Assembly: GCF_023256195.1 (NCBI RefSeq)
Contig: NZ_JAGDWX010000036.1
Location: 1 to 64,000 of the forward strand
DNA length: 64,000 nt
Reading direction: 5' to 3'
Origin: Acidithiobacillus sp.
GTDB lineage: Bacteria; Pseudomonadota; Gammaproteobacteria; Acidithiobacillales; Acidithiobacillaceae
This document shows positions 37,611 to 64,000 of the stretch, piece by piece. Made by a program: the position numbers and the translations under genes. Positions within the stretch are counted from its first letter, which is position 1, and each line of letters begins with the position of its first letter. Under the pieces are notes generated by a model, which made no database searches, was not told where the DNA came from, and was given only the letters and a program-made list of their open reading frames with translations.

Positions 37611-37633
37611 CAAGCTTTTCCATGGAGAGTCGT

Positions 37634-43327: not shown

Positions 43328-43341
43328 AGGAATACATTCCT
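43328..43341. promoter_or_regulatory. inverted repeat upstream of the small secreted protein
   Basis: AGGAAT and ATTCCT are perfect 6-base arms around AC, 47 bases before the ATG of the small secreted protein and downstream of the LysR gene. It is a possible operator; the binding protein is unknown. Confidence 0.3.
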
Positions 43342-43388
43342 CATTGCTACATAAAACGTAGTTTGAGAAAAGCAAAGAGGAGCCTATC

Positions 43389-43604
43389 ATGAAAACCATG
43401 TTCGTATTACTGAGTCTACTTACGGTGAGTGCTGCTGCGTCTGCGGATATCACGACTAGTCCAACACCGCCCTTCAGTTTCTGCGCACAGGAATATGCGG
43501 CAGGTTACGCATCCTGCGCGCAGTCCCAGAGTGCTGTGACTGCCAAGAAAGAAAGCGCTGCACAGTCATCCGCTCATCAGGATGGTGAGGCCATACAGCA
43601 GTAA
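43389..43604 (+). CDS. small secreted two-cysteine protein, unknown function
   Basis: A 71-aa protein. A clear signal peptide (residues 1-19, ending ASA before Asp20) leaves a mature part of about 52 residues with two cysteines (C32, C43) eleven apart, which could form a disulfide, and a hydrophilic Gln/Ser/Ala/Lys-rich tail. GAGGAG lies 8-9 bases before the ATG, and a terminator-like hairpin follows the gene, so it is a real single-gene unit. I do not recognise a family. Confidence 0.75.
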   Translation: MKTMFVLLSLLTVSAAASADITTSPTPPFSFCAQEYAAGYASCAQSQSAVTAKKESAAQSSAHQDGEAIQQ

Positions 43605-43675
43605 CATTCCATAGTCGGGTAATCGTCGGGCGTTCATCCAAACGAACCTTATCTGGCTATGCATCCTGAAGCTCT

Positions 43676-43713
43676 ACGCCGGGCTGGCTTTTTTGCCAAC
43701 TCGGCGTTCTATT
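43676..43713 (+). terminator. terminator-like hairpin
   Basis: A 13-base-pair stem (43676-43688 with 43695-43707), with one G-T wobble and one mismatch, closes a T6 loop. The loosely T-rich TCTATTTT follows. It ends the small secreted protein unit. Confidence 0.55.
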
Positions 43714-43873
43714 TTGGGCCGGTTTATTCTCTAGGATCGGAATAATGCCGCTATTCTGTGGGTCTGTGTTAGCCATGGGCCAGGTTTCGGTGGCTACGCG
43801 GATGGCGCATGCCTCTTTCGGGGGGGCAAGTGTTGATCACGGGCGAGGCCACTCGGTATCTCCCCGAATCAAA

Positions 43874-43929
43874 ATGTCATAAATTTGTCATGTAATCTTC
43901 ATCATAATGTCACAATAAGCTGCTAGGCT
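43874..43929 (+). promoter_or_regulatory. tandem Pho boxes (four half-sites) and -10
   Basis: Half-sites ATGTCAT (43874), TTGTCAT (43885), TCTTCAT (43896) and ATGTCAC (43907) start every 11 bases. Ten bases after the last comes TAGGCT (43924-43929) in a TGCTAGGCT context. The predicted transcript starts near 43936, 27 bases before the receptor ATG. Confidence 0.85.
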
Positions 43930-43962
43930 TCCGCATCAGTCTCCCTCCAAGGAAGCCTGTCC

Positions 43963-46266: not shown

Positions 46267-46300
46267 GGGTTGTACGGTAGTTCTCCTCCTCAAGAGCCTT

Positions 46301-46324
46301 GCGTCCCTCGGGACGCGTTTTTTC
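46301..46324 (+). terminator. Rho-independent terminator
   Basis: GCGTCC and GGACGC pair around CTCG and are followed by GTTTTTTC. It sits 35 bases after the receptor stop and before the phosphoesterase gene, so expression of the latter depends on read-through or an unseen promoter in 46325-46375. Confidence 0.8.
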
Positions 46325-46375
46325 TGAGCTCAGGATGCACCTCAGTTCAGAAAAGTCGATGAAAAGGAAGCGAGT

Positions 46376-49309: not shown

Positions 49310-49334
49310 GCTCTTGGACCCGAGCCGGTTGTGA

Positions 49335-49368
49335 CTGTCATCAAAGTGTCACATTCCAGCTTTATACT
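49335..49368 (+). promoter_or_regulatory. Pho box promoter of the MFS gene
   Basis: CTGTCAT (49335-49341) and GTGTCAC (49346-49352) are 11 bases apart. Ten bases later comes the -10 hexamer TATACT (49363-49368), the best -10 of the five Pho promoters. The transcript would start near 49375, about 70 bases before the ATG. Confidence 0.85.
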
Positions 49369-49445
49369 GGGTATCGAGTCGATGATCCGGCACTGCTGCC
49401 GGCGGGATCCCGCCGCGCGCGCCACCGCAGAGGAGCAAGCGTCCC

Positions 49446-50816
49446 ATGAGCGCCGTCTTCACCACCCTCGATGAACAGTCCATCACGAATCGCCACCGCC
49501 GCATCCTGTGGGCGTCCGGTTTGGGGATCTTTCTCGATGGCTACGACCTCAGCATCATGGCTATTGCCCTGATCGTGCTCAAAGATCAGTGGCATCCGAG
49601 CTCTGCCGCCCTGGGTCTGCTGGGAACGGCGGCCTTGGTGGGTGCCCTGGTCGGGGGGCTGCTGGGCGGACCCATTGCCGATCGCTATGGCCGCAAGACC
49701 ATCTACCTCATCGACATCGCCGCTTTTTTCTTTGCCGCCCTGCTCTCCGGTTCTGCCTGGAACATCGCCTCGCTGGTGGCGTTTCGCTTCCTGCTGGGCC
49801 TCGGCGTCGGTGCCGATTATCCGCTGAGCTCCACTTACATGGCGGAGTTCATGCCCAAGGATCAGCGAGGTGGAGTGATGACCTGGATCTTCGGGCTGTG
49901 GATGGGAGGTGCGGTGGTATCGAGCCTGGTGGGCCTCGCTCTACTGCACACCGGTCCCGATGCCTGGCGCTGGATGCTGGCCTCTGGCGCGTTGCCGGCG
50001 ATCTTGGTCTTGTGGATGCGACGCAATCTGCCGGAGTCGCCGCGCTGGTATCTGCGCCGGGGTCGGGTGGCAGACGCCGAGCGGGTGGTTGCCTGGCTCG
50101 CCCCGCAGTTGACGGAGGCGCAGCGGCGAGCCGCCTTACAAGAGACGGCAGCCGCCATGGAGGGGGCCAAACGCCACAACTGGCTGGACCTTTTTGGCAA
50201 ACGCTACCTCAAACTCACCCTCTACGCCTGTATTCCCTGGTTCATGATGGATGTCATGGGCTACGCTCTGGCTATCTTCCTTCCCCTCATGCTTCTGCAC
50301 CTCGGTCTCAAGACCAACGAACAGGCAGTGATCGGCAATACCTTGTTCAGTCTCGCTTTTGTGATCGGCTGGATACCGCTGGCGCTGCTCATCGATCGTA
50401 TCGGTCGGCGTCGCGCCCAGATCATCGGTTTTCTGGGGGATGCCGTGGGCCTTGGACTCGTCGGAGTGTTGTTGGTAGTTCTGGGTGAGCCACCATTCTG
50501 GGCCGTGGCGACCGGTCTGCTGCTCTTTCAGATCAGCAACAGTTTCGGCCCCGGGACCACCACCTGGATCATTCCCACGGAACTCTACCCCACGGAGCTT
50601 CGGGCTAGCGGCCACGGCTTTGCCACGGCCGTCAGCCGTCTGGGGGCTGCCACCAGCGTTTTCCTGCTGCCCACCGTGCAGGAAAAACTGGGTGAGGCGG
50701 GCCTGCTCTTTCTGCTGGCGGGGGCAGGAGTGGTGGGAGTCGTAACCACCCTCTGGCTCGGTAACGAAATGGCTCGCGAGAGCCTGCCCGAGAGCCTTGA
50801 GCGAAAGGCGGCCTGA
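49446..50816 (+). CDS. MFS transporter, candidate phosphate/organophosphate carrier
   Basis: A 456-aa major facilitator with 12 predicted membrane segments and sugar-porter-type motifs: GPIADRYGRKTIYLID after segment 2, GLGVGADYPLSSTY, NLPESPRWYL before the central loop and DRIGRRRAQ in the second half. This subgroup includes proton-coupled phosphate carriers as well as sugar and aromatic acid carriers, so the substrate is open. Direct control by a Pho box makes phosphate or a phosphate ester likely. GAGGAG lies about 10 bases before the ATG. It converges on the glycosyltransferase gene with a 3-base gap. Confidence 0.85.
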   Translation: MSAVFTTLDEQSITNRHRRILWASGLGIFLDGYDLSIMAIALIVLKDQWHPSSAALGLLGTAALVGALVGGLLGGPIADRYGRKTIYLIDIAAFFFAALLSGSAWNIASLVAFRFLLGLGVGADYPLSSTYMAEFMPKDQRGGVMTWIFGLWMGGAVVSSLVGLALLHTGPDAWRWMLASGALPAILVLWMRRNLPESPRWYLRRGRVADAERVVAWLAPQLTEAQRRAALQETAAAMEGAKRHNWLDLFGKRYLKLTLYACIPWFMMDVMGYALAIFLPLMLLHLGLKTNEQAVIGNTLFSLAFVIGWIPLALLIDRIGRRRAQIIGFLGDAVGLGLVGVLLVVLGEPPFWAVATGLLLFQISNSFGPGTTTWIIPTELYPTELRASGHGFATAVSRLGAATSVFLLPTVQEKLGEAGLLFLLAGAGVVGVVTTLWLGNEMARESLPESLERKAA

Positions 50817-50819
50817 GTC

Positions 50820-51839
50820 CTAGTGCCGGCCGCGCGCCGGCACGAGGTTGGCGATGAATTCGCGGGTACAGCTCGCCCAGTCGTAGACCATGGCGCGCTC
50901 GCGACAGGTCTCGCGCGAGAGATCGAGGGCCGCGCGCGCGGCTTTGCCGAGATCCTCATCGAGAATACCGTTGATACCGCTGCGCACCGTGGCCAGCGGG
51001 CCCACCACCGGGTAGGCAGCCACGGGCACGCCACAGGCGTTGGCCTCCAGAATCACGAGCCCCAAGGTGTCGGTGCGGCTCGGGAAAACCATGACGTCGG
51101 TGGCGGCAAGGTGGCGCGCAAGGTCTTCGCCCTGGCGCATGCCGAGCCAGTGTACCCTGGGATAGCGCGACCGGAGGTCCGCAGCCTGCGGCCCGTCGCC
51201 GATGACGACCTTGCTGCCGGGTAGCTCCAGCCTCAGGAAATCCTCGACATTCTTCTCTACGGCTACCCGCCCGAAGTAGGCAAAAATGGGTCGCGGCAAA
51301 TCCAGGACGGAGCGCCGTTCCGACTCCGATAGGGGACGGAACAGGGAGGTATCCACGCCGCGACTCCACAAGGCGAGGCGGGTGATGCCGCGCGCGCGGA
51401 TTTCGTCGGCCAGGGCCTGGTTGGATACCAGGGTCTGTACGGCGCCGCCGTGGAACCAGCGCAGAAAGGCATAACTCAGGTCCAGGGGTACGGGCGCACG
51501 AGCCGCCAAGTATTCGGGAAAGCGGGTATGGAAAGAGGTGGTGAAATCCCAGCGCCGCCGCTTGCAGTAGAAGCGTGCCGCAAGACCGAGCGGCCCTTCC
51601 GTGGCGATATGCACGGCGTCCGGCTGAAATTCGCCCAGCAGGCGTCGGACCAGAGCATAGGGACGTAGGGTCAGGCGGATTTCCTCGTAGGTGGGGCAGG
51701 GTACGGTACGCTGGCCGAGACTGTTGACGACCAGCACTTCGTGACCGATCTGCTGCGCTTGTCTTGCCGTCTCACTGAGGGCGCGCACGACGCCATTGAT
51801 CTGCGGGTGCCAGGCGTCGGTGACCAGCGCGATCTTCAT
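50820..51839 (-). CDS. glycosyltransferase family 4, probable diacylglycerol glycosyltransferase (Agt/SqdX type)
   Basis: A 339-aa GT-B enzyme: the N-terminal acceptor domain starts TDAWHPQINGVVRAL and contains ATEGPLGLAARFYC and SFHTRFPEYLAAR. The C-terminal donor domain has AYFGRVAVEKNVEDF, VIGDGPQ and PSRTDTLGLVILEANACG (an EX7E-like site with the first Glu replaced by Asp). This pattern is shared by SqdX and by bacterial Agt enzymes that put glucose, glucuronate or sulfoquinovose on diacylglycerol. The start overlaps the plcP-like gene by 4 bases (ATGA), the known plcP-agt arrangement, so lipid remodelling is the favoured role. Confidence 0.87.
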   Translation of the reverse strand: MKIALVTDAWHPQINGVVRALSETARQAQQIGHEVLVVNSLGQRTVPCPTYEEIRLTLRPYALVRRLLGEFQPDAVHIATEGPLGLAARFYCKRRRWDFTTSFHTRFPEYLAARAPVPLDLSYAFLRWFHGGAVQTLVSNQALADEIRARGITRLALWSRGVDTSLFRPLSESERRSVLDLPRPIFAYFGRVAVEKNVEDFLRLELPGSKVVIGDGPQAADLRSRYPRVHWLGMRQGEDLARHLAATDVMVFPSRTDTLGLVILEANACGVPVAAYPVVGPLATVRSGINGILDEDLGKAARAALDLSRETCRERAMVYDWASCTREFIANLVPARGRH

Positions 51840-52675
51840 GCCAGGACGTCCTCATCCAGCACCACGCTTTTCGGATCCAGCAACGGCCGCTGGTCGGCAG
51901 GCAGACCATCGGGTCCCCAATGGACGAGGTGGAACCGACCATCGAAGTCCTCCACCAGGGCGGTGCAGCTCTCTACCCAGTCACCGTCGTTGAAGTACTG
52001 GACCCCGGCAAGATTCTTGATTTCGGCGTGGTGGATGTGACCGCAGACCACGCCATCGAAGCCCGCCTGGTGACAGCGCAAGGCGAGAAACTGCTCGTAC
52101 TGGCTGATGAACTGCACGGCCTTTTTGATGCGATGCTTGACAAAGGCACTGAGGGACCAGCGACTGCGGATGCCAAGCAGGCGATTGATCCGCTGATGGT
52201 AGCGGTTGAGGGCGAGCAGGAGTCCGTAGCCGCGATCCCCCAGGCGGGTCAACCAGACGGCATAACGGGCGCTGACGTCGAACTGATCGCCGTGGGTGAC
52301 CCAGATACGGCGGCCGTCGGCTGTCTCGTGCACGCAGTCGGTGACGATGCGGATGTCACCGAAATGCAGCCCACCGCCCTCGGCCTCCAGCAGGGAATGG
52401 AGAAAACCCAGGATGGGGTCGTGGTTGCCCTGCACATAGACCACCTGAATACCGTTGCGGGCCTGCCGCAGGATTTTTTGGATCACGGTGCTGTGGGCGC
52501 TAGGCCAGTACCAGCGGCGCCGCAGTGCCCACAGATCGATGATGTCGCCCACCAGATACAGGTGTGGCGCCCGATAGTGACGCAAAAAATCGAGCAGGGC
52601 CTCGGCCTGGCAACCCTTGGTTCCCAGGTGGATGTCGGAGATGAAGATGCTTCTGCAGTTGGCGGTTTCGAGCAT
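51836..52675 (-). CDS. plcP: PlcP-type metallophosphoesterase (phospholipase C for lipid remodelling)
   Basis: A 279-aa calcineurin-like metallophosphoesterase. Metal sites are complete: SDIHLG (D14, H16), GDIIDLW (D44, D47), GNHD (83-86), THGDQFD and GHIHHAE. The protein resembles LpxH-like UDP-diacylglucosamine hydrolases, but the ISDIHLGTKGCQAEALLDFL start and the coupled glycosyltransferase match PlcP. PlcP splits the head group off phosphatidylcholine or phosphatidylethanolamine during phosphate starvation to give diacylglycerol. It is divergent from the Pho-controlled regulator gene, with the Pho boxes between them. An LpxH function is the main alternative. Confidence 0.82.
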   Translation of the reverse strand: MLETANCRSIFISDIHLGTKGCQAEALLDFLRHYRAPHLYLVGDIIDLWALRRRWYWPSAHSTVIQKILRQARNGIQVVYVQGNHDPILGFLHSLLEAEGGGLHFGDIRIVTDCVHETADGRRIWVTHGDQFDVSARYAVWLTRLGDRGYGLLLALNRYHQRINRLLGIRSRWSLSAFVKHRIKKAVQFISQYEQFLALRCHQAGFDGVVCGHIHHAEIKNLAGVQYFNDGDWVESCTALVEDFDGRFHLVHWGPDGLPADQRPLLDPKSVVLDEDVLA

Positions 52676-52806
52676 GCGTAGGGCATTTCCAGGGTTGCCG
52701 ACATCGGGGAGCGTTGAAAACCTTGTCCTAACAGATCGCGATTATAAGATGCCTGATGGTGGAAAGTCTCCTCTGCAGTCTGTAGGCGACCAGAATATGC
52801 CGTCAC

Positions 52807-52862
52807 ATGTCATCATTTTGTCATAAAAGGTTCATAAAGATGTCATATTAGTCGGGTATCCT
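52807..52862 (+). promoter_or_regulatory. tandem Pho boxes (four half-sites) and -10
   Basis: Half-sites ATGTCAT (52807), TTGTCAT (52818), GGTTCAT (52829) and ATGTCAT (52840) start every 11 bases. After exactly 10 bases follows TATCCT (52857-52862). They are oriented toward the regulator gene at 52925. Whether the same array also serves the divergent plcP-like gene is open, because no minus-strand half-sites are seen. Confidence 0.85.
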
Positions 52863-52924
52863 TACAGCATGAGTCTAAGCTTCGCAACCTGGGCTTGGGC
52901 TGCGACTTTGGGAGGATCCCTACC

Positions 52925-53707
52925 ATGCTGTACGCCCTGATTGCCGGAACCTTGCACCACGCTGTCCACCTCGGCGATGCCCTGGCGCTGTTGAGTGCCG
53001 TGCGCTGGGACGAGATGGACCCCCTTTATCGTGCCCGTACCCTGCTTTTTGGGCAAGCCCCCGAAATCGATGGGCTGACGCAGCGTCTGCGTCGTTCCGG
53101 CGCCTTTCCGCGCCGCGCCACGGACCGGGCGCTCGTAGCTGAGGTGCTGCGCGACTGGCGTCCGCAGCTGCTCATCCTGCTGTCCTGGGAGATCGAGCTG
53201 GCGGCGGATCTACGCCAATGGCTGGCAGGGCCTCAGGGCGAGAAGCTGCGGGTTCTGGCCCTTGGCCCGGAGGGCGACGACCAGGCCATGGCCGCCCTGG
53301 ACGCCGGTGTGCATGCCTATCTCACCTATCCCCTCAGCGAGACCCTGCTGATCGCCCAGGCCAGCGCCTTGCTGCGCGGTGGTCAAGGCTGGGAGGGCAC
53401 CGCCGTGGAGCTGCCGGGAATACTTCGGATCGATCCCATGGCCCACCGGATCTGGGTGCAGGAGCAGGAACTGCAGCTCAGCCGCCGTATTTTTCGCCTC
53501 TTTCATTACCTTGCTCTGCATCCCGGGCAGACTTTCTCGGCCGCAGAGATTGCGCACCACCTGAGCGATGGTCGTAAATTCGTGCAGGAGAACACCATCG
53601 CCGCGCAGATCCACCGCCTGCGCAAGGTGCTGGAGGGCGCGGGGGCGGACGTTTGGCTGGAAACGGTCCACGGCTTTGGTTACCGGCTGAATATACCGGC
53701 TCCTTGA
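52925..53707 (+). CDS. OmpR/PhoB-type regulator with degenerate receiver domain
   Basis: A 260-aa protein with a complete OmpR-type winged helix (about 164-258; LSRRIFRLFHYLALHPGQTF, then TIAAQIHRLRKVLE and TVHGFGYRL). It is preceded by a receiver-like fold without phosphorylation chemistry. The N-terminal acidic pair is missing (YALIAGTL), Ser87 stands at the phospho-Asp position (LLILLSWEI) and Tyr135 at the conserved Lys (AYLTYPL). It should therefore work without a kinase or bind another signal. GGAGG is 9 bases before the ATG. It is transcribed from four Pho half-sites, so PhoB probably induces it. No histidine kinase gene is adjacent. Confidence 0.85.
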   Translation: MLYALIAGTLHHAVHLGDALALLSAVRWDEMDPLYRARTLLFGQAPEIDGLTQRLRRSGAFPRRATDRALVAEVLRDWRPQLLILLSWEIELAADLRQWLAGPQGEKLRVLALGPEGDDQAMAALDAGVHAYLTYPLSETLLIAQASALLRGGQGWEGTAVELPGILRIDPMAHRIWVQEQELQLSRRIFRLFHYLALHPGQTFSAAEIAHHLSDGRKFVQENTIAAQIHRLRKVLEGAGADVWLETVHGFGYRLNIPAP

Positions 53708-53713: not shown

Positions 53714-53791
53714 TTGTCATAAAATTATCATAAAAATGTCACAAAAATGTCATACAAGCTTCATAATACTGTCATATTCCAGTGCTAGGAT
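53714..53791 (+). promoter_or_regulatory. six-half-site Pho box array and extended -10
   Basis: Six 7-base half-sites start at 53714, 53725, 53736, 53747, 53758 and 53769 (TTGTCAT, TTATCAT, ATGTCAC, ATGTCAT, GCTTCAT, CTGTCAT), each separated by 4 A-rich bases. Exactly 10 bases after the last comes TAGGAT (53786-53791) within TGCTAGGAT. The transcript would start near 53797, ahead of exbB. The regulator gene ends 6 bases before the array. Confidence 0.9.
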
Positions 53792-53818: not shown

Positions 53819-54505
53819 ATGGACTTTTCCTACATCATTCACCTGGCCAACTATTCTGAAGGTGTGCTCTACGTTCTGGCAGCGCTGCTGCTGGTAGAGT
53901 TGGCGGTCATGGTCGACCGCTTCTGGTATCTGCGCCGCACCATCGTGCGCGGCGATGCCATTGTCCACGAGGTGGCAAATCAGGGCCGGCTCGACCGCGA
54001 ACAGTTGCGAGAGCTTGCCGATCGTGCCGGGGATCTGCCGGAGGGCGTGCTCCTGCGCATGGCCGCTGCGCACGCCGGGCAGGTCAAGGGTGAGGCCCTG
54101 GCCAGCCGGCTGGAAGAGTCGGTCATCACCTTGGCACCCAATCTCGATCGCCGCCTCTGGCTGTTGGACACTATCATCACCCTGGCGCCGTTGCTGGGCC
54201 TCTTCGGCACCATCATCGGCATGTTTCACGCCTTCCACGTGCTGGCCGCGCCCGGACATGCGCCGACGGAGGTCACGGGGGGGGTCGCCGACGCGCTGGT
54301 GGCCACGGCCTCTGGACTGTTCATCGCCATCCTCGGTCTGCTGGCTTTCAACGGCTTCAATAACCAGGTGCGACAGATCCTGCTGCAATTGGATTCGGTC
54401 AAGACCATGCTCATCAACCGCATGGATGGCCAGCCCATGTTGAATCCCGAGGGCGACCAGAACATCGAAACCGCCGAGCTGCCGCGAATGGCGAGGGTCG
54501 GCTGA
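53819..54505 (+). CDS. exbB: ExbB/TolQ-type proton channel subunit
   Basis: A 228-aa inner-membrane protein with three membrane segments (about 14-34, 112-135 and 156-180). The MotA/TolQ/ExbB signature is in the second and third: DTIITLAPLLGLFGTIIGM and GVADALVATASGLFIAI. With ExbD it converts the proton gradient into motion of TonB. The ATG at 53819 has GAGGGA about 8 bases upstream; an upstream TTG frame starts at the -10 region and is excluded. It is the first gene of the long Pho-controlled operon and overlaps exbD by 1 base. Confidence 0.94.
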   Translation: MDFSYIIHLANYSEGVLYVLAALLLVELAVMVDRFWYLRRTIVRGDAIVHEVANQGRLDREQLRELADRAGDLPEGVLLRMAAAHAGQVKGEALASRLEESVITLAPNLDRRLWLLDTIITLAPLLGLFGTIIGMFHAFHVLAAPGHAPTEVTGGVADALVATASGLFIAILGLLAFNGFNNQVRQILLQLDSVKTMLINRMDGQPMLNPEGDQNIETAELPRMARVG

Positions 54506-54906
54506 TGGAGCGGCGTTATTTCGAACAACGCAAGGGGCGGGTGGAGATCATCCCGATGATCGACATCATGCTATTTTTGCTGGTGTTTTTCATCATGATC
54601 ACCCTGCAGATGATCCCCGATCAGGGTCTCAACCTGCAGCTGCCTCAGTCCAGTCAGGCCAAGCAGCTGCCGCGACCGCACTACACCATCAACATCGAAA
54701 AGGATGGCAGCGTCGAAGTGAAAGGCAAACACTATGACCTGGCCGGACTGCAGAATATGTTGGCGCGTGACGGCGATCCGGCCAAGACCGAGATCACCAT
54801 CGCCGCCGACAAGGCCGTGCCTTTCCAGAACTTCATCCACGTCATGGATGCCTGTCAGAAGGCCGGTGTCAGCAACATCGGTATCGCCGCCAAACCCAGC
54901 GCTTGA
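54505..54906 (+). CDS. exbD: ExbD/TolR-type subunit
   Basis: A 133-aa protein with a short cytoplasmic N-terminus, one membrane segment (about 16-36) containing the essential proton-relay Asp20 (PMIDIM), and a periplasmic domain with ITIAADKAVPFQNFIHVMDA. It forms the ExbB-ExbD motor energising TonB. Its ATG overlaps the exbB stop (TGATG). Dedicated exbBD copies next to a receptor and tonB suggest a system separate from a housekeeping one. Confidence 0.94.
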   Translation: MERRYFEQRKGRVEIIPMIDIMLFLLVFFIMITLQMIPDQGLNLQLPQSSQAKQLPRPHYTINIEKDGSVEVKGKHYDLAGLQNMLARDGDPAKTEITIAADKAVPFQNFIHVMDACQKAGVSNIGIAAKPSA

Positions 54907-54943
54907 TTCGCTTTAAAAACTAACCGCTACAAGGAGAACGATC

Positions 54944-57343
54944 GTGTATACCCATGCGTCCAACACGCATCCCGACGCCCATGCCGGGCAGCAGGGTGCC
55001 GCAATCCTGTTACCTTCGCCGCTTGTCCTTGCCGTGATCGGCGCCCTGTTCGCACCCAGTGTCTTTGCCGCAGACGCGGCTGGCCCCACGGCACCGACGC
55101 AGTCTGCGGCGGTCTCGGTGGGCGAGGTCAGTGCTGCGGCAGCGGCAGAGTCCTATCTGGGCAGCGCGCAGGCGCAGTCCCTGACGCAGAAGCATAATTT
55201 CAATTCCGGTCAGTCCATCAAGGTCCTGGGCAAGGAACAGATGGCGGCAGCGGGTCCTCTGGGTGGCAGTGCCCAGGCTCTGTCCTACGCCCCGGGTGTG
55301 GGCGTCTCCGGCTACGGCTCCACGGGTGCGACCAAGACATCCATCAGTATCAATGGCATCAAGCAGGGCTGGGGCGGCTTTTCCGGCGGCCAGATCGACG
55401 ACGGCAGCCTGTCCGTGGTATTCGACGGCGTGCCCATGGTGGATCCGGGCACGGGGCTCTGGCAGTCGCCCCAGGTGCCACAGACGGGCATCCTGCAGGG
55501 TATCCGGTTGACCTACGGTCCGGGTAACCCCGAAGATCGTTGGTATAACAATATCGGCGGACAGATCGATTTCGTCCCTCTACAGCCGACGGCCAAGCCC
55601 GGCGGCGATATCAAGTTGACCTACGGCAGCTACAATTCCAAGGATATCGTCTTCAATATCCGCACCGGCAGTATCGATGGTTGGTCTACCATCATTGCCG
55701 GTGGTGCCGGGTCCTCCAACAGCTACCGCCAGAGTCCCGATGGTTTCAACAATCCCAGCTACAGCTACGCTTGGTTCTTGAAAACGCGCAAGACCTTCAG
55801 TAACGGCGATTTCTCCGTCGGCGCCTACCTGGCCAAGGGCTCCGGATATAGACCCGTGCCCATTCCGGTGAATCCCATCAATGGTGTGACCTTTACCGGT
55901 GCGACGGGATCCCCCCTCTACAGTCAGGCGACCTCCGGCTTCTACTCCTCGCTTCCAAGGAACATCTGGTACAAGCAGGATAGTAACAGCACTTGGCTGA
56001 TCTACAGCAAGCTCAATATCGCACTGGATCAGACTTGGGGACTACACAATATGGTGTGGTACCGTTACGGTCATCGTTTGCATTTCCACTACAACAACTA
56101 CGGTCTCGGTAACCCATCCAATCTGTACGAGTACAACAACCCACACGATTCTGTTTATGGCGATAAGCTGTGGCTCAGCGCCAAACTGCCCTATAACGAT
56201 GTAAGCTTTGGCGGCTACTTCCTGAACAGCCGTTACAATACCCGCAACGCCTTCTACAATCCGGCGGATGGTGGCACGCGCTTCGTTCCCAATGCGCATT
56301 ACCGCAGCGACTACTTCGACCAGACCTTCCTGGCCGCGTTCCTGCAGGATCGTATCAGTCCGATGAGCAATCTGCACATCACTCCAGGCGTGCGTTTCAT
56401 CAATCTGCAGACCCATTACACGCCGGCGGGGCAGACGGATTTTGCCCAGGCCTATGCCCTCTATCCCAATAACGATCAGGGAAAGCTGCCCGCAGCCAAT
56501 ACCAGCTTCACCAAGGTCGAGCCTTCGGTCGATTTCAATTGGCAGCCGCTGCACTGGCTGGCAGTCTTTGCCAGCTACTCGCAGGCCTACAAGGAGCCGC
56601 AGTTCGGCGGCGGTGGTGGCCTCTTCCAGAAGAAGGCGCCCATCTACAACCTGGAAAAGGGCGCCGACTACAACGCCGGTGTCAAGGTACACTTCCAGAA
56701 TGCCCCCTATCTGCATAACTTTCTGGCCTCGGCGAGCTTTTATCACCTGCATTACACCAACCAGTATATCCCCCTGTACAATGCCAACGGCAGCTACATC
56801 GGCGATGCCAACGGTGACTCAATCTATCAGGGTGTAAATATTGCTATCGAAGACGATATCCTCTACAACCTGCACGTCTTCGCCAACGCCAACTTTGAAA
56901 AGGCGACCTTCGATCACTATGTCACCGGCGGTGTCAGTTACGACGGCCTGCCGGTCTCCAACGTGCCGAACAAGACCTTCAATATCGGCGCCAGCTACCG
57001 CTACTATCTAGCAGGTATATTGTTGAAGCCGAGCCTGTGGTATCAGTACGTCGGCGCCCAGTCCTTGTTCGACAACAACGCGGGTGCTCCCAGTACGACC
57101 AAGATGCCGGGCTATGGCACGCTGAATCTGGGTCTGCACGGAACGGTGCCGATGCAGGGCCGCGTACCGATGCTGAAGACCGTCGATTTCAGCGTCAATA
57201 TCCTCAATATAGCCAATAACCGCTATAACGAGTTCGAGTATATCACCGGTGGTGGTCTTCTGGGTGGCGATTCGGCGGGTCAGGTGCTGGCTCTGCCCGG
57301 TGCTCCCTTGACCGTATACGGCAGTATTTCCGCACATTTCTGA
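54944..57343 (+). CDS. TonB-dependent outer-membrane receptor
   Basis: A 799-aa receptor: a long signal sequence (hydrophobic core about 25-40, cut near VFA-ADA), a candidate TonB box VSVGEVSA (about 62-69), a plug (about 90-235; VSGYGSTGATKTSISINGIK, VVFDGVPMVDPG, LTYGPGNPEDRWYNNIGG) and a barrel rich in Tyr and Asn ending SISAHF. The GTG start at 54944 has AAGGAG 7 bases upstream. Its own exbBD and tonB flank it. The ligand is unknown; the operon content points to an organic phosphate compound. It shares plug motifs and C-terminus with the receptor at 43963-46266. Confidence 0.93.
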   Translation: MYTHASNTHPDAHAGQQGAAILLPSPLVLAVIGALFAPSVFAADAAGPTAPTQSAAVSVGEVSAAAAAESYLGSAQAQSLTQKHNFNSGQSIKVLGKEQMAAAGPLGGSAQALSYAPGVGVSGYGSTGATKTSISINGIKQGWGGFSGGQIDDGSLSVVFDGVPMVDPGTGLWQSPQVPQTGILQGIRLTYGPGNPEDRWYNNIGGQIDFVPLQPTAKPGGDIKLTYGSYNSKDIVFNIRTGSIDGWSTIIAGGAGSSNSYRQSPDGFNNPSYSYAWFLKTRKTFSNGDFSVGAYLAKGSGYRPVPIPVNPINGVTFTGATGSPLYSQATSGFYSSLPRNIWYKQDSNSTWLIYSKLNIALDQTWGLHNMVWYRYGHRLHFHYNNYGLGNPSNLYEYNNPHDSVYGDKLWLSAKLPYNDVSFGGYFLNSRYNTRNAFYNPADGGTRFVPNAHYRSDYFDQTFLAAFLQDRISPMSNLHITPGVRFINLQTHYTPAGQTDFAQAYALYPNNDQGKLPAANTSFTKVEPSVDFNWQPLHWLAVFASYSQAYKEPQFGGGGGLFQKKAPIYNLEKGADYNAGVKVHFQNAPYLHNFLASASFYHLHYTNQYIPLYNANGSYIGDANGDSIYQGVNIAIEDDILYNLHVFANANFEKATFDHYVTGGVSYDGLPVSNVPNKTFNIGASYRYYLAGILLKPSLWYQYVGAQSLFDNNAGAPSTTKMPGYGTLNLGLHGTVPMQGRVPMLKTVDFSVNILNIANNRYNEFEYITGGGLLGGDSAGQVLALPGAPLTVYGSISAHF

Positions 57344-57375
57344 TAGTCCCGGGCGTGGCATCTGCGGATGCCATC

Positions 57376-57416
57376 GCCTGCCTTTGGGATTTTTGCGAAA
57401 GATTCCAAAGGCAGGC
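57376..57416 (+). other. strong intercistronic hairpin between receptor and tonB
   Basis: GCCTGCCTTTGG (57376-57387) and CCAAAGGCAGGC (57405-57416) are perfect 12-base arms. The bases between them extend the pairing to 19 pairs with two G-T wobbles around a GCG loop. No T-run follows, so this is not a typical terminator; it probably protects or processes the mRNA. Confidence 0.75.
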
Positions 57417-57442
57417 TGGGCCATGACGGAGGTAAGCAGTCC

Positions 57443-58192
57443 ATGAGTGTCACGATCAGCAGCCCGGGAATGCCGCGGCGCGGGCCCAAAACCCAGGGAT
57501 ATTTTGGTCGGGGTTTGATCGTCGCCGCGCTGTTGGAAGCAGGCTTGATCTTTGCCCTGGTCTGGGTGAGCAACCAGAAGTCGCCACCGCCACCGCCCAA
57601 ACCCAAGCGCATCGCCATCCACATGGTGCAGCCGGCGCCGCCGAAACCGAAACCGAAACCGGTTCCGCCCAAGCCCGTGGTGCAGCCAAAACCCAAGCCG
57701 GTGCCGAAACCCTTGCCAAAACCCGCACCACAGCCCAAGCCCCAGCCGGTAATACACCACGTCCCAAAACCGACTCCCAAACCGCTGGTGGCCAAGACAC
57801 CCGCGCCCACGGCTCCGGTAGTACCGCCCAGCCCGCCGGTGACGGCGCCACCTCCACCGCCGCCGCCACCCGCCCCGAGCCTTTCGGCGCAGAGAACGGC
57901 CATGGCCGAGTACGCATCTCTGGTGCGGGCGCGGGTGCAGGCGGATACGCGGGTGCCGGAAGCCGTCCGCCTCATGCATCTGCGGGGCACGGCGGTCATT
58001 TCCTTTGAGCTCACTCCGTCTGGACGTCTGGTATCGGCCCGAATCGCGCAATCCAGCGGCATCAGCGCCATCGACAAGGCGGCTCTGGCGGCGGTGGAGA
58101 ACACCAGTTATCCCCCCTTCACCAAGGACATGCCCAAACACACCACGCGCTTTGATGTCGAGGTGCACCTCTCGGCAGAGAGTGGCGGCTGA
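57443..58192 (+). CDS. tonB: TonB energy transducer
   Basis: A 249-aa protein: one membrane segment (about 25-43), a long periplasmic Pro/Lys-rich spacer (about 50-150 with many KPKP and PPP units), and the C-terminal TonB domain (about 165-249; AVRLMHLRGTAVISFELTPS, KAALAAVENTSYPPF). It transmits ExbBD energy to the receptor's TonB box. The start at 57443 has GGAGG about 10 bases upstream; a longer frame to 57368 includes the hairpin and is unlikely. It lies 100 bases after the receptor and 24 before the binding-protein gene. Confidence 0.93.
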   Translation: MSVTISSPGMPRRGPKTQGYFGRGLIVAALLEAGLIFALVWVSNQKSPPPPPKPKRIAIHMVQPAPPKPKPKPVPPKPVVQPKPKPVPKPLPKPAPQPKPQPVIHHVPKPTPKPLVAKTPAPTAPVVPPSPPVTAPPPPPPPPAPSLSAQRTAMAEYASLVRARVQADTRVPEAVRLMHLRGTAVISFELTPSGRLVSARIAQSSGISAIDKAALAAVENTSYPPFTKDMPKHTTRFDVEVHLSAESGG

Positions 58193-58216
58193 CACACCCG
58201 TTTTGGAAGGACTATC

Positions 58217-59230
58217 GTGCGTAGACTCATCTGGATCCTCATTCCCCTGCTCGTCATCGTGGCCGTGTGGAGTTTCTGGCCGCGGCAGAAGGGGGGGCTC
58301 GTCTTCTATAGTGCCGTCAGCTACGGACCCATGCTGGCCCAGGCCTTTACCCGGGAGTCGGGCATTCCGGTCCGGGTGGTGGAAATGTCGACGGGCGCCC
58401 TGCTGGCCAGGGTCTCGGCGCAGGGCAACAACCCGCAGTGGGATGTGGCCTGGTTTGATGGAGCTTCGGCGGCGGCCGGTCTCGACCGCGCCCATCTCGT
58501 GAGCACGGGGATCGTACCTAAGGACATCCCCTGGACCACTCTGGGGAAATCCTTGATTCCCGCAGATGGTGCCTGGATTCCCACGGGTTATACTCTCGCC
58601 GGGGTCTTTCTGCATCCGGCCAAGAGCGCCGCACCGACGACCTGGGACGACCTGTTACAGGCGCGCTGGCGTGGGCATTTTGCCATGAACAACCCAGCCA
58701 TTTCCGGCCCGACCTATCCGCAGGTGGCAGGGTGGCTGGAGAGCCACGGTGGCTGGCCGGCGGGGCAGTCTTTCCTGCTTGCCTTGAAGGGCAATGGCAT
58801 GCAGGTCTTTCCCAAGAACAGCAACACCATCCATGCCTTGACCCAGGGGAATATCGACCTGGCCATCGTCCAGTCATCGGCGGCTTATGCCCTGGCGGCG
58901 GAGCAGCCCGGTCATTGGGCTGTGAGCATCCCAAAGCCGGCGGTGCTCTTGCCGCGCGTGATGGTGTTTGCTAATCACCTGAATCCCAAGCGGGAGCGTG
59001 AGGCCACGGAGTTTGCCCAGTTCATGCTGAGTCCAAAGGCTCAGGAGCTCGCCATGCGCCAGGGAGCGCCGGACGGTTTCTACTGGCCCATCACCCGGAA
59101 TGCTCCGGCGGCGGACCCGGGGATGGCCGACACCCATGCCTTGCCCTTGATCAACCTGGATCCAACACTCTGGGGTGAGCGCGAGAGCGCCATCAATGCC
59201 TGGTTCAGCAGTCATATTCTCGGTCAGTGA
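58217..59230 (+). CDS. ABC importer substrate-binding protein (iron/organophosphate type)
   Basis: A 337-aa periplasmic binding protein with an N-terminal hydrophobic segment (about 4-20) that may anchor it or be cleaved. The fold is that of the Fe3+/thiamine/2-aminoethylphosphonate group: GLVFYSAVSYGPMLAQAFTR, NPQWDVAWFDG, TWDDLLQARWRGHFAMNNPA, and a C-terminal FAQFMLSPKAQELA. The ligand residues of ferric-binding proteins (paired Tyr) are not evident, so an organophosphate ligand fits the operon better; this is inference. The GTG start at 58217 has AAGGA upstream. Confidence 0.85.
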   Translation: MRRLIWILIPLLVIVAVWSFWPRQKGGLVFYSAVSYGPMLAQAFTRESGIPVRVVEMSTGALLARVSAQGNNPQWDVAWFDGASAAAGLDRAHLVSTGIVPKDIPWTTLGKSLIPADGAWIPTGYTLAGVFLHPAKSAAPTTWDDLLQARWRGHFAMNNPAISGPTYPQVAGWLESHGGWPAGQSFLLALKGNGMQVFPKNSNTIHALTQGNIDLAIVQSSAAYALAAEQPGHWAVSIPKPAVLLPRVMVFANHLNPKREREATEFAQFMLSPKAQELAMRQGAPDGFYWPITRNAPAADPGMADTHALPLINLDPTLWGERESAINAWFSSHILGQ

Positions 59231-59238
59231 GGGGTATC

Positions 59239-60831
59239 GTGCGCGGTTTTCGAGGCGTCCTGCGAACTCTTCCGGTGTGGCTGATCATCCTGATCTTTTT
59301 CGTCTATCCCTTGGGTCGCTTTCTGCTGTTGCCCTGGTTCCCGGATTGGGCGCCCCAGAGCATCGGGGCGACTTCCTGGCCCAGTGATACCTGGGCGGCC
59401 CTGCGGAACTCCCTGCTGCTTGCCACGGCGGCGGCGATTATCGCGGCCTTGTTGGGGACCCTCTGGGCTTGGGCCATGGAGCGTCGGAGCAGCGTCTGGC
59501 ATCCTTGGTCGGAGGCGATTCTCTGGCTGATCTTTCTCATGCCCAGCTATCTTTTGAGCACGGGCTGGGAGATTCTCTTCGCCGCCCCGGCCCTTCGCCA
59601 CGGCCTCCTGCATGAGTGGTTCTACAGCCCTTTGGGTATCGTTGCCCTGCTGGCTGCCAAGGCGCTGCCCTTTGCCGTATTCGTGGTACGTCCACTGTGG
59701 GCTGCCCTGGGGCATGAACTGACGGAAGCGATGCGCATCTTTGCGGTACGTCCGGGGCGGGCGCTCTGGATTTTTCTGCGCCTGGCCATTCCCGTTGCCT
59801 CGGCGGCCCTGGTAGTATCCTTCATCGAGAGCGTGCAGGAATTTGGCATTCCCGCGACCCTGGGAGCCCACTTGCACCTGCCGATCCTGACCTATTCCAT
59901 CTACTCGGCCTTGAGTACCTCGCCCCTGAATTTCGTGGGCGCGTCGCGTCTGGCCTTGCTGCTGGTGGTTCTGGCGCTTTCCGGAGCCTTGTTGCAGATC
60001 GTCTTGCAGAAGCGATTCGGTGCGGTGCTGGTGCATGGGCAGGTACGGCATCGGCTGCCATCGCGACCTCGGCGATCCGAAGCGGCCATGATCGCCGCTC
60101 TCAATCTGTCGGTGGGCCTGCTCGTTTTGTTCCTTCCTATGCTGGCCGTGGTCGGCTCCGCCTTTCGTGGTGGCTGGGCAGCATTGCGCACCGCCGACTG
60201 GAGTCCGGTCCTGCACTCCCTGGGGTTTTCGCTGATGGCGGCGTCTCTGGCGATCCTGCTCGCCTGGCTCTTTGCCCGCAGCCTGGTCTCCGGGGGGGTC
60301 GGTGGCCGGGCGATGGATGTTTTTTCCATGGGCAACATGGCCGTTCCCGGACTGGTACTGGGGGCTGCCTATATCATGGCTTTCAATGTGCCGGGCTTTT
60401 CGCTGTATGGTGGCAGTCTCTTGCTGATCCTTGCCTACACCGCCGCCACGGCACCGATGCTCACCCGTCTCCTGCAGGCGCCCATGGCGCAGCTGGATCG
60501 CTCTTTGGGGGATGCGGCTCGGATCCACGGGGTATCGGCATGGGCTCGCTGGCTGGATATCGACGCGGCTCTACTGTCGCGACCGCTGGTGCGCGGCTGG
60601 CTCCTGGCTTTTGGCACCGTGATGTTTGAACTGCCCGTATCGGAGCTGCTGTATCCGGCGGGTAAGACCCCCCTGGGCGTTGCCGTTCTGGCCCTGAACA
60701 ACGGCGAGCATTATGCGGCGGCGGCGCGCCTTGCCCTCGGCGGCCTCGCCAGCGTGGCGCTGGTGACTGTGGCGGTGCTGGTGCTATTGCGCCTGGCACT
60801 GCCGGACTATCGTGTGCTTGTGGCAGAATAG
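59239..60831 (+). CDS. ABC importer permease, fused two-domain
   Basis: About 530 aa, with roughly twelve membrane segments, equal to two FbpB-type permease domains in one chain. EAA-loop-like sequences lie near residues 165-195 and 445-475 (SLGDAARIHGVSAWARWLDI). Fused permeases of this type occur in ferric, AfuB sugar-phosphate and 2-aminoethylphosphonate importers. The start is GTG 59239 with GAGGGG 4 bases upstream; GTG 59227, which overlaps the preceding stop as GTGA, is the alternative. It works with the flanking binding protein and ATPase. Confidence 0.88.
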   Translation: MRGFRGVLRTLPVWLIILIFFVYPLGRFLLLPWFPDWAPQSIGATSWPSDTWAALRNSLLLATAAAIIAALLGTLWAWAMERRSSVWHPWSEAILWLIFLMPSYLLSTGWEILFAAPALRHGLLHEWFYSPLGIVALLAAKALPFAVFVVRPLWAALGHELTEAMRIFAVRPGRALWIFLRLAIPVASAALVVSFIESVQEFGIPATLGAHLHLPILTYSIYSALSTSPLNFVGASRLALLLVVLALSGALLQIVLQKRFGAVLVHGQVRHRLPSRPRRSEAAMIAALNLSVGLLVLFLPMLAVVGSAFRGGWAALRTADWSPVLHSLGFSLMAASLAILLAWLFARSLVSGGVGGRAMDVFSMGNMAVPGLVLGAAYIMAFNVPGFSLYGGSLLLILAYTAATAPMLTRLLQAPMAQLDRSLGDAARIHGVSAWARWLDIDAALLSRPLVRGWLLAFGTVMFELPVSELLYPAGKTPLGVAVLALNNGEHYAAAARLALGGLASVALVTVAVLVLLRLALPDYRVLVAE

Positions 60832-60843
60832 GAGCGAGACCAT

Positions 60844-61944
60844 ATGGCGACGGCAAGGGAAAGGATGCCTGCGGTGAGCACCGCGCAAGAGATGGGAGCC
60901 AGCGAGGCCGCGTCGCTTCTGGAAGTGGAAGGGCTGCACCTGCGTCTGGGCAAAAAGGCGGTGCTGCGTGGCATCGACCTGAACCTGCGCAAGGGTGAAG
61001 TCGTGCTCATCATCGGTCCGTCAGGGTCTGGCAAGAGCAGCCTTTTGCGCGCCATCGCCGGTCTGGAGCCGCTCGAGAGAGGAAGTATCCGCCTGTGTGG
61101 GAAGGTTTTGGACGACGGTCGAGGTACCGCTTTGGATCCGGAACAGCGGCGGATGGCCATGGTTTTCCAGGATCACGCGCTCTGGCCACACCTGTCGGTG
61201 CAGGAAAATGTGGGGCTGGTGATTCCCGGTCGCGACGGTCGCGACAAGGCCCTGGCGCTTCTAGAGCGCATGGGTATCGCCCACCTGGCGAAACGTCGTC
61301 CCCACGAGATTTCCGGGGGGCAGCGGCAGCGGGTGGGTCTGGCGCGAGCACTGGCCGTCGCGCCGAGTCTGATGCTCATGGACGAGCCGCTGTCCAGTCT
61401 CGATGTGGAGCTGCGCGAACAGTTGCGCCTGGAGATCCGCCGCTGCTTGCGTGCGCTGGATATCGGTGCCCTGATCGTCAGCCACGATCCCGACGATCTC
61501 TGGCGTCTTGCGGATCGGGTCGTGGTTTTGGCGGATGGCCACATCGTGCAGGATGGTCCGCCCCAGGCCCTCTACGATCGCCCTCGGTTGCCCTGGATTG
61601 CCCGTTTTACCGGTGCGCAGGGTCCGTTCCCGGCGCAATGTAAGGATGGTGCGCTCACTGTTGCCGGGCAGCGACTGGCGCTGGCGGGCTCTGTGGGCGA
61701 GGCAGGTCCCGGAATGCTCTTCATCCGACCCGAAAGCGTACAGATCCGGACGGAGGAGCAGCAGGGGCTTGTCGGCGTGCTGCGCCATTGTGCCTTCGAA
61801 CGCGGTCACTATCGCAGCTACTGGGAGCTTCCGGGTTTGTCCGAGTCTCTGGTGGCTACCTCCTCCGTGGCGCCGCCGCCGCGCGCCCGGCTCTGGATCG
61901 ATCCGAGCCAGCTTTTCTTCTTTCCACAGTCTCCACAGGAGTGA
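60844..61944 (+). CDS. ABC importer ATP-binding protein
   Basis: A 366-aa ATPase with Walker A GPSGSGKSS (58-66), signature ISGGQRQ (157-163), Walker B LMLMDEP (177-183), the switch His in SHDPDD and a C-terminal TOBE-like domain (about 265-360). An N-terminal extension of about 22 residues precedes the domain. The closest families are FbpC, PhnT-like and AfuC ATPases. It lies 12 bases after the permease and is followed without a gap by the membrane-protein gene. Confidence 0.9.
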   Translation: MATARERMPAVSTAQEMGASEAASLLEVEGLHLRLGKKAVLRGIDLNLRKGEVVLIIGPSGSGKSSLLRAIAGLEPLERGSIRLCGKVLDDGRGTALDPEQRRMAMVFQDHALWPHLSVQENVGLVIPGRDGRDKALALLERMGIAHLAKRRPHEISGGQRQRVGLARALAVAPSLMLMDEPLSSLDVELREQLRLEIRRCLRALDIGALIVSHDPDDLWRLADRVVVLADGHIVQDGPPQALYDRPRLPWIARFTGAQGPFPAQCKDGALTVAGQRLALAGSVGEAGPGMLFIRPESVQIRTEEQQGLVGVLRHCAFERGHYRSYWELPGLSESLVATSSVAPPPRARLWIDPSQLFFFPQSPQE

Positions 61945-61946
61945 AC

Positions 61947-62666
61947 ATGTCGCCCTGGCAAATCGTTACCGCCACCGGTCTTGCGGCCATCGTCGAATGG
62001 GTCGAGGCCTTCACCATCGTCCTCGCTGTCGCCCTCACCATCGGCTGGCCGCGGGCCTTGGGGGCAAGTCTCGCCGCTATCGTGACCTTGGTGGTCATGA
62101 CGGCCGTAGGGGGAAGCCTGCTCCTGGCGGGTATCGATATCCAGTGGCTGCAGGCAATAGTGGGGATATTCCTGCTCTTTTTCGGCAGTCGCTGGTTGGC
62201 CAAGGCCATTGCCCGTGCCGCCGGACGGGTGCCTCTGCACGATGAGGAAAAGGCCTTTGCCAAGACCCAGAACCTGCTCCGCGGCGATGTCTCGGCGGCC
62301 TGGCTCGTGGCCTACAAGGGCGTGCTTTTGGAGGGGCTGGAAGTTTGGCTGATCGTCATCGCTCTGGGTGCCCAGACCCACACCATCGATCTGGCCGCTG
62401 CTGCCGCCGCCGGTGCCCTGGTGTTGGTGGCCTTGGCTGGAGCTATCATCCACCGACCGTTGCGGCGGGTTCCCGAAAACAGCATGAAATTTTTTGTCGG
62501 TGCCATGATTACGGCCTTCGGCAGTTATTGGAGCCTGCACGCCCTGGGTCTGCAGTGGCCGGGAGAGGATGCCGCGATCTTGGCTCTGGTGGCATTCTAT
62601 CTCCTGACGGGGATCGTCGCGGTCCTGATGCTGCGGACCAACAAGGTGCGAGGGGTAGCGGCATGA
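61947..62666 (+). CDS. polytopic membrane protein with duplicated ExxE motif (COG4280-like)
   Basis: A 239-aa inner-membrane protein with about seven hydrophobic segments. Two segments carry the same motif: E17-W-V-E20 followed by AFTIVLAVAL, and E129-G-L-E132 followed by VWLIVIALG. Paired acidic ExxE motifs in an internal repeat recall FTR1/GDT1-like cation transporters, though the family assignment is only a resemblance. AGGAG lies 7 bases before the ATG, which follows the ATPase stop by 2 bases. The stop overlaps the next small gene (ATGA). Function unknown; a counter-ion or export partner of the ABC system is a guess. Confidence 0.8.
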   Translation: MSPWQIVTATGLAAIVEWVEAFTIVLAVALTIGWPRALGASLAAIVTLVVMTAVGGSLLLAGIDIQWLQAIVGIFLLFFGSRWLAKAIARAAGRVPLHDEEKAFAKTQNLLRGDVSAAWLVAYKGVLLEGLEVWLIVIALGAQTHTIDLAAAAAAGALVLVALAGAIIHRPLRRVPENSMKFFVGAMITAFGSYWSLHALGLQWPGEDAAILALVAFYLLTGIVAVLMLRTNKVRGVAA

Positions 62667-62839
62667 AGGCACTGTGGAAGACCCTGTTCGGTGACCGTTA
62701 TACCGTGGCCGTGGTGCTGCTGGCTCTGGCCCTGAACTACGCGCTCTTGCGCAGCCCCTGGGCGTATGTGGTGACCTACAGCTTTCCTGCCCTGCTCATG
62801 GCAGGCATCGTCTGGATGGCCTGGCGACAAGGAGATTGA
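62663..62839 (+). CDS. small membrane protein, unknown function
   Basis: A 58-aa protein with two membrane segments (about 13-30 and 36-53), a basic N-terminus (MKALWKTLFGDRYT) and a short charged tail. It overlaps the stop of the preceding membrane-protein gene by 4 bases, so the two are probably made together and may interact. It is too short for domain recognition, but its position inside a tight operon supports that it is real. Confidence 0.75.
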   Translation: MKALWKTLFGDRYTVAVVLLALALNYALLRSPWAYVVTYSFPALLMAGIVWMAWRQGD

Positions 62840-62867
62840 TGTGCAGCAGAAAAAGGAGGGGAGCGTG

Positions 62868-63668
62868 ATGTGGTGGATGATCTGGCTGCTGGTAGGGCTG
62901 CTTGGTGGGTTGGAGCCGGCGACGGCCTGGGCCGAGGGCCCCGTTCCGCCCGCGACGGAGATGCGATTTCAGCACTACACCTTTGCCATGTTGTGGCAGC
63001 CAGGGGTGTGCAAGACCTGGACCGATGTGGGCGCGAGTTGCAGTAACATCGGCCCGCGCTCGCGTGCCAGTCAGGAGTGGAGCCTGCACGGTCTCTGGGC
63101 CAGCCGTCCCGAGGTGCTGGTCCGTCAGCAGGTACCGGACGAGACTTGGTGGCGCTATGGCTGCAACTGGTTCGAGCCGGGCCACCCACCGCTCCCGCAC
63201 GATTCCTGCAGCGCCCTGCCGGCCCTGAAGCTATCACCGGCCGTCGAGCAGCGTTTGCATGCGCACATGCCCATGGCGAGTAACTGTCTGGACCGGCATG
63301 AATTCTACAAGCACGAGGTGTGCTTCGGCTCCAGTCCCGATGCCTACTTCAGCCAGGCTCTGCGCCTTCTGGACAGGGTCAATGCCAGTAGCTTCACGGC
63401 CTTCGTCCGCGATCATCGCGGTGAGTGGGTGCGTCGCGATGCCTTGCTGCGGGCCTTCGCCGATGCTTTTCACGGCCACAGCGATGCGCTGGAGCTGCGC
63501 TGCGAACAGCCCGATGGTAAGCGCGGTGGGTCTCGGAGCGAGGGTACCGTATTGACGGAGGCCTGGATCACCTTGCGCGCGGACAAGGTCGCCGACTTTC
63601 CTGCGGGCGACAGCTTGATGGCGGGGCGCAAGGGGAACTGCGCGCGCCTCATCCACATCCTGCCCTGA
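62868..63668 (+). CDS. secreted ribonuclease T2
   Basis: A 266-aa periplasmic or secreted RNase of the T2 family: a signal peptide (about 1-22, cut near AWA), the first active-site motif WSLHGLW with His74, and the second, HEFYKHEVC, with His144, Glu145, Lys148 and His149. Cysteines for disulfides are present. It cleaves RNA to 2',3'-cyclic and 3'-nucleotides, a source of phosphate. The start ATG 62868 has AGGAGG 8 bases upstream; GTG 62841 would add nine residues before the signal peptide. It is part of the exbB operon. Confidence 0.92.
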   Translation: MWWMIWLLVGLLGGLEPATAWAEGPVPPATEMRFQHYTFAMLWQPGVCKTWTDVGASCSNIGPRSRASQEWSLHGLWASRPEVLVRQQVPDETWWRYGCNWFEPGHPPLPHDSCSALPALKLSPAVEQRLHAHMPMASNCLDRHEFYKHEVCFGSSPDAYFSQALRLLDRVNASSFTAFVRDHRGEWVRRDALLRAFADAFHGHSDALELRCEQPDGKRGGSRSEGTVLTEAWITLRADKVADFPAGDSLMAGRKGNCARLIHILP

Positions 63669-63682
63669 GCGAAGGCTAGCAT

Positions 63683-64000
63683 ATGGCTCAGGCAAAAATG
63701 GACCGCCGCCACTTTCTGAAGAGTCTGGCCGCGGTAAGTATCGCGGCAGGGCTTGCCCCGGGCCTGGTGGGCCGTAGCCGGGCGGCAGGCCGGGAGGCTG
63801 CGGCTCTACGGGAGAAGATCGACCATGTGGTCGTCATTTTTCAGGAGAATCGCAGTTTCGACCACTACTTCGGTACTTTTCAGGCCGCTACCGGGCAGGG
63901 GATCCTCAATCTGCTTGACGACGATGGTCGGATAGCCCGGCATTTTGACGGGCTGCAGAAAAACCCGGCGGGAATTCCCTATCCCGACTTGCCACTGCCG
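63683..64000 (+). CDS. phosphoesterase family phospholipase C / acid phosphatase (partial, runs off the window)
   Basis: Only the first 106 codons are in the window. The N-terminus has a twin-arginine signal (MDRRHFLKSLAAVSIAAG) for folded export, followed by HVVVIFQENRSFDHYFGTF, the start of the PF04185 phosphoesterase domain of phospholipases C and AcpA-type acid phosphatases. It would release phosphate or phosphorylated head groups outside the inner membrane. It lies 14 bases after the RNase T2 gene in the same operon. ATG 63698 is an alternative start. Confidence 0.9.
   Translation, partial: MAQAKMDRRHFLKSLAAVSIAAGLAPGLVGRSRAAGREAAALREKIDHVVVIFQENRSFDHYFGTFQAATGQGILNLLDDDGRIARHFDGLQKNPAGIPYPDLPLP

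Follow-up and report, generated by a model that had tools for sequence, protein, structure and literature searches.

Gene organization

The window, that is, the whole 64,000-nt stretch of Acidithiobacillus DNA analysed here, lies in contig 37 (142,863 bases) of a 1.98-Mb genome and ends within an operon of eleven genes, all on the forward strand, which begins at position 53819. The genes follow one another with intergenic gaps of -4 to 37 bp (from exbB onward -1, 37, 24, 24, -4, 12, 2, -4, 25 and 14 bp), and terminator-like sites within the operon are no more numerous than in shuffled sequences. The original prediction had given order, strand and the named genes correctly, but counted only ten of them.

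The first two genes are exbB (53819..54505, with its ATG start at 53819; PF01618) and exbD (54505..54906; PF02472), followed by the gene of a TonB-dependent receptor (54944..57343; PF00593 and PF07715) and by tonB (57368..58192; PF03544 and TIGR01352). The next three encode a membrane-anchored solute-binding protein of the FbpA/AfuA/PhnS group (58217..59230; PF13416), a fused ABC permease matching PF00528 in two stretches (59227..60831) and an ABC ATPase (60844..61944; PF00005). Two membrane proteins come after these: a polytopic protein of 239 residues, here called mem8 (61947..62666), and one of 58 residues, mem58 (62663..62839). The operon closes with an RNase T2 gene (62865..63668; PF00445), in whose product both the catalytic His motif (HGLW) and the Glu/Lys/His motif (HEFYKH) are present, and with the gene of a 524-residue PF04185 phosphoesterase carrying a Tat signal, which occupies 63683..64000 and extends beyond the end of the window as far as contig position 65257 (L005:184-1758). 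The last gene had been called a phospholipase C; it does encode a phosphoesterase, but that more specific identity is not supported, the protein scoring 175.9 against the PC-PLC model TIGR03396 (cut-off 580.25). The acid phosphatase model outscores the PC-PLC model, yet also stays below its cut-off (230.2 versus 362.75).

Promoter and upstream region

The operon is headed by a single array of six Pho half-sites (53714..53779, forward strand), tandem repeats of the CTGTCAT type in exact 11-bp register; in order from 53714 they read TTGTCATAAAA, TTATCATAAAA, ATGTCACAAAA, ATGTCATACAA, GCTTCATAATA and CTGTCATATTC. Ten nucleotides past the last half-site lies a -10 hexamer, TAGGAT (53786..53791), which places the predicted transcript start near 53798, about 20 nt ahead of exbB. 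Pho arrays of related genomes typically show the same spacing: at 21 of the 24 arrays examined in five genomes the -10 box has at least four of six matches, against a background of 7%. None of ten shuffled windows had a run of more than three half-sites. Genome-wide, the perfect dimer TGTCAY-N5-TGTCAY was found 13 times and a reversed control pattern not once; the genes behind it, named by eye from sequence, include two pstS genes, pstB, a phosphate-symporter-like MFS protein, porins, TonB receptors and an OlsB-like acyltransferase. The Pho box ahead of the latter (G000:C37:97647, L174) suggests ornithine-lipid synthesis during phosphate starvation. A true PhoB is also encoded in the genome (C28:33480; 305.5 bits versus a cut-off of 296.2). 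With the array in register, its -10 box and a phoB gene at hand, the six-half-site Pho array proposed originally is borne out, and by its promoter sequence the operon almost certainly belongs to the Pho regulon.

A search of the same promoter for a Fur box gave 11 of 19 consensus matches, which is the level of shuffled sequences (fraction about 0.5); the control gene mntH, which is predicted to be under Fur in this genus (PMC2631029), reached 14 of 19.

The operon forms the end of a phosphorus island, the rest of which spans window positions 37601-53707. The island comprises genes for PPK2, an OprD-like porin, a second TonB receptor with four half-sites, a 977-residue beta-propeller phosphoesterase, an MFS protein with two half-sites, and a glycosyltransferase and metallophosphoesterase pair, which we take to resemble the Agt/PlcP lipid-replacement pair. 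Next to the operon comes a degenerate PhoB-like winged-helix regulator (52895..53707, forward strand), which scores 88 bits with the PhoB profile against a cut-off of 296; ahead of its gene are four Pho half-sites (52807..52850, forward strand) with a -10-like TATCCT at the 10-nt spacing. Homologs of this regulator adjoin the TonB-ABC system in other families, too.

The binding protein and its ABC partners

The AF2 model of the binding protein has a pLDDT of 94.7, and in the fold search the iron binder HitA came first (TM 0.74) and the structure of Salmonella STM0429 second. The best single-sequence match in the PDB is P5PA. The fold alone does not tell iron binders from phosphate-ester binders; the residues do.

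The FbpA fold of the protein speaks for an uptake system for ferric iron or ferric phosphate, in which the receptor would take in iron as a chelate with phosphate or organophosphate, to be moved on by the FbpA-like protein and the ABC parts; mem8 would be an FTR1-like iron permease, and Pho control would serve to gather phosphate-bound iron. The gene association and the hypothesis have been published, and the model is close to that of PMC2631029. Against it stand the residues: none of the 38 aligned binding proteins has the two adjacent tyrosines with which FbpA binds iron, the positions being Ser221/Ala222 here, with Ala222 in 38 of 38. The promoter argues in the same direction, being of the Pho type and having no Fur box above shuffles although the mntH control scores. 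We regard iron as an unlikely cargo.

The residues that hold phosphate in the solved structures of AfuA and P5PA (PMC4546632, PMC8427247) do have candidate counterparts. In a mapping by sequence alignment, T59-G60 falls at Thr37 of P5PA and Ser37-Gly38 of AfuA, S163-G164 at Ser147-Gly148 of P5PA, and N201 near Ser183; T59, G60 and G164 are each kept in 36 of 38 proteins, S163 in all 38, and N201 is conserved as well. One point against the match is that Thr149 of P5PA corresponds to Pro165. The family does not keep the residues His205/Asp206 with which AfuA binds the sugar ring, and the region of the iron tyrosines and His205 reads QSSAA in the family. From these residues we infer that the binding protein would clamp a phosphate ester via its Thr-Gly, Ser-Gly and Asn positions.

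Import of a phosphonate resembling 2-aminoethylphosphonate has some appeal, since the nearest NCBIfam models of all three ABC parts are those of the 2-aminoethylphosphonate set and STM0429 ranks second in the fold search. All three parts are far below the curated cut-offs, though (PhnS2, 52.6 versus 392.75 for the binding protein; PhnU2, 75.9 versus 593.25 for the permease; PhnT2, 245.7 versus 457.7 for the ATPase), and a gene for phosphonate breakdown was not seen next to the operon, which makes a phosphonate importer decidedly unlikely. The receptor had no match among PDB sequences and thus gives no hint of the substrate.

The mem8 family

For mem8 eight helices are predicted, about seven of which are long enough to cross the membrane. 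Two glutamate motifs, VEWVEA and LEGLEV, are invariant, and LHDE and VPEN are further motifs. The mem8 of the window belongs to no Pfam family and gave no FTR1/EfeU match above the Pfam or NCBIfam cut-offs; within the family, matches to EfeU/FTR1 are weak (best member, E 0.008). Similarity at the profile level is weak and equal for FTR1 and GDT1, but well above that for ABC-permease and MFS controls. The iron permease FTR1/EfeU and the cation exchanger GDT1 share with mem8 the two repeated glutamate motifs in helices; mem8 differs from them in that the likeness is confined to weak profile similarity, the search with its predicted structure having yielded no significant fold match in the PDB. 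Our best guess from the sequence is that mem8 has a role with a cation or with protons. Because of its weak resemblance to FTR1, the iron or metal-phosphate reading stays a rival.

In Acidiphilium (L088, L096, L100), a binding protein of the same family directly precedes mem8 and no ABC permease or ATPase was detected nearby, a hint that mem8 may work with the binding protein alone. A glucose-6-phosphate-isomerase-like gene, named by eye, lies near mem8 in Dictyobacter (L116, L122); as support for hexose phosphate as the substrate this neighbour was judged too thin.

Conservation of the system

With mem8 as the probe, relatives were found in at least 465 genome stretches, of which the best 80 (named) were read. 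The core was defined as binding protein, fused permease, ATPase and mem8, to which mem58 is usually added, and it is complete in 35 of these 80. Among the 35 core loci, mem58 is present in 23, following mem8, a receptor in 16, ExbBD in 13 and RNase T2 in none. A genome of the same genus has the whole operon with six-site array and RNase T2, the phosphoesterase being absent from the locus. Elsewhere the core can stand alone, as in the unit of binding protein, permease, ATPase, mem8 and mem58 behind a five-site array in G009, or it can keep its surroundings: in a member of another family (G065) the order is again regulator, exbB, exbD, receptor, tonB, binding protein, permease, ATPase and mem8. 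The receptors diverge among loci (about 22 to 64% identity). No shared enzyme or conserved phosphatase was seen beside the core when the downstream genes of the other loci were read. This and the divergence of the receptors count against import of a phosphorylated compound.

Neither RNase T2 nor the phosphoesterase belongs to the core; both are lineage-specific riders. As the core is conserved while the hydrolases are missing elsewhere, it is an old unit and they are recent additions. The nuclease and phospholipase of the original proposal are thus not part of the conserved system, the former occurring in none of the 35 core loci and solely in the genome of the same genus, the latter missing even there. 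The proposed self-contained TonB-plus-ABC route, on the other hand, is well supported, and the conservation across Proteobacteria strengthens it. For the unnamed mem8 family, found in at least 465 genome stretches, the operon would provide a first functional context.

Pho-type arrays at other loci

By a fixed rule, Pho-like arrays precede 17 of 29 loci of the system; in shuffled versions of the same sequence the mean was 0.3 and the maximum 3. Control genes in the same loci have arrays in 4 of 103 cases, one of them itself a phosphoesterase, and orphan mem8 loci in 2 of 37 (Fisher P about 2e-10 and 3e-6, respectively, for the comparison with system loci, values that are indicative only because the loci are mutually related). 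The start of one of the 29 loci, L054, was picked with the array known; when it is omitted along with L051, P is still 3e-9. A chance origin of the arrays was rejected on the basis of the shuffles, the real neighbouring genes and the orphan mem8 loci. Outside the Acidithiobacillaceae the arrays are weaker and some are on the other strand; it may be the local PhoB-like regulator that recognizes them.

Since relatives in other acidophiles also carry Pho-type sites, the operon is likely a phosphorus importer rather than an iron importer. The arrays also bear on the notion that it takes up a different solute present in traces, be it an oxyanion or a cofactor like pyridoxal phosphate, and is merely induced at low phosphate. 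The match of the binding protein to P5PA and the varying receptor types among loci would agree with this; the recurrence of Pho-type arrays at the system across families favours a phosphorus source instead, and such a solute appears very unlikely.

In other acidithiobacilli (L029, L030, L031, L033, L034) there is a paralogous system of ATPase, binding protein and permease, preceded by Pho boxes. Behind it, in L030 and L031, comes a periplasmic protein whose RHGE motif is histidine-phosphatase-like, and in G007 an insertion sequence (L031 11207-12378) splits a Pho-controlled porin gene ahead of it.

The TonB receptors of the genus offer a wider view: 16 of 33 (L178-L210) in five Acidithiobacillus genomes (G000, G001, G018, G022, G023) carry Pho arrays, most of them with -10 boxes at the expected spacing. 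In this count the operon of the window and its copy in the same genus were scored by the array ahead of exbB, and one receptor of the window's own genome was unreadable, its upstream region lying off the contig. Acidithiobacillus lives in iron-rich acid, yet has many TonB receptors, in the five genomes about half of them behind Pho arrays; an entire TonB-ABC operon stands behind a Pho array in the genus and, less strongly, in other acidophiles.

Proposed function

We consider it rather probable that the operon, under Pho control, takes a phosphorylated organic compound in through both membranes. A product of organic phosphate breakdown, the cargo proposed originally, is a putative substrate. 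During phosphate starvation PhoB would bind the six half-sites, which by their layout stand in for a -35 box. ExbB, ExbD and the operon's own TonB would energize the receptor, which may carry across the outer membrane a phosphate ester that is bulky or scarce and, in acid, perhaps bound to metal; to judge from its residues, the binding protein would then pass the clamped ester to the fused permease and the ATPase. mem8 and mem58 may help by transporting a cation or protons that come with the substrate. In this lineage, secreted RNase T2 and phosphoesterase, added at the end of the operon, may supply smaller substrates.

A bolder version of this phosphorus-import reading is that the system represents a distinct and widespread class of trans-envelope phosphorus importers in acid-dwelling bacteria which take metal-bound phosphate esters, the ester travelling by way of the TonB receptor and the ABC transporter, with mem8 (and mem58) as a new family distantly related to FTR1/GDT1 that moves the freed metal or protons. 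This seems doubtful at present; if true, iron-rich acidophiles would owe their "excess" of iron receptors largely to receptors for phosphorus.

Comparison with known systems

TonB systems beside phosphate genes were seen in Acidithiobacillus in 2008, and phosphate was proposed as an iron chelator (PMC2631029). The systems described there for Acidithiobacillus and Leptospirillum are alike in that a receptor, ExbBD-TonB, phosphatases and a PhoB-like regulator are clustered, and the set possibly includes the copy of the present locus in A. caldus, which appears to have the same operon. They differ in being read as Fe(III) uptake under Fur; the main text reports no Pho boxes, nor does it describe an ABC importer with mem8 and mem58 for the phosphate-linked clusters. 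In PMC2621215 and PMC2631029 the receptors of A. ferrooxidans are assigned to siderophores and their number is remarked upon as surprising. The present reading inverts the model of PMC2631029: phosphorus is most likely the cargo. If so, phosphorus is what many of the "iron" transporters in biomining bacteria carry. In A. ferrooxidans treated with a quorum-sensing agonist, an exbB and a tonB gene went up along with pstS and pstC (PMC5021923), an indirect observation that agrees with common control by phosphate. No paper reporting Pho boxes at Acidithiobacillus TonB receptors was found in a search that covered mostly the main texts of papers free of subscription.

In Pseudomonas aeruginosa, exbB2-exbD2-tonB4 (PA0693-PA0695) are likewise private TonB energizers, expressed at low phosphate in a PhoB-dependent manner (PMC7035377, PMC4971064); there, the sigma factor VreI is needed in addition, and PA0690-PA0701 as listed in that work contain neither a TonB-dependent receptor nor an ABC importer. 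The novelty originally claimed for a TonB-ABC system dedicated to phosphate compounds is therefore reduced, by these Pho-controlled genes (PMC7035377) and by the TonB systems beside phosphate genes that PMC2631029 reads as iron systems. The PhoB regulon of Caulobacter crescentus also includes TonB-dependent receptors, proposed for alternative phosphate donors, whereas a dedicated operon of TonB and ABC parts is not described in the passage concerned (PMC11208175). The AfuABC and P5PA importers, finally, were first taken for, or are related to, iron importers, and hold phosphate by helix N-termini with Ser/Thr-Gly (PMC4546632, PMC8427247); neither TonB parts nor mem8 are reported for them, and His205/Asp206 set AfuA apart from the operon's family, which shares with both the candidate phosphate clamp.
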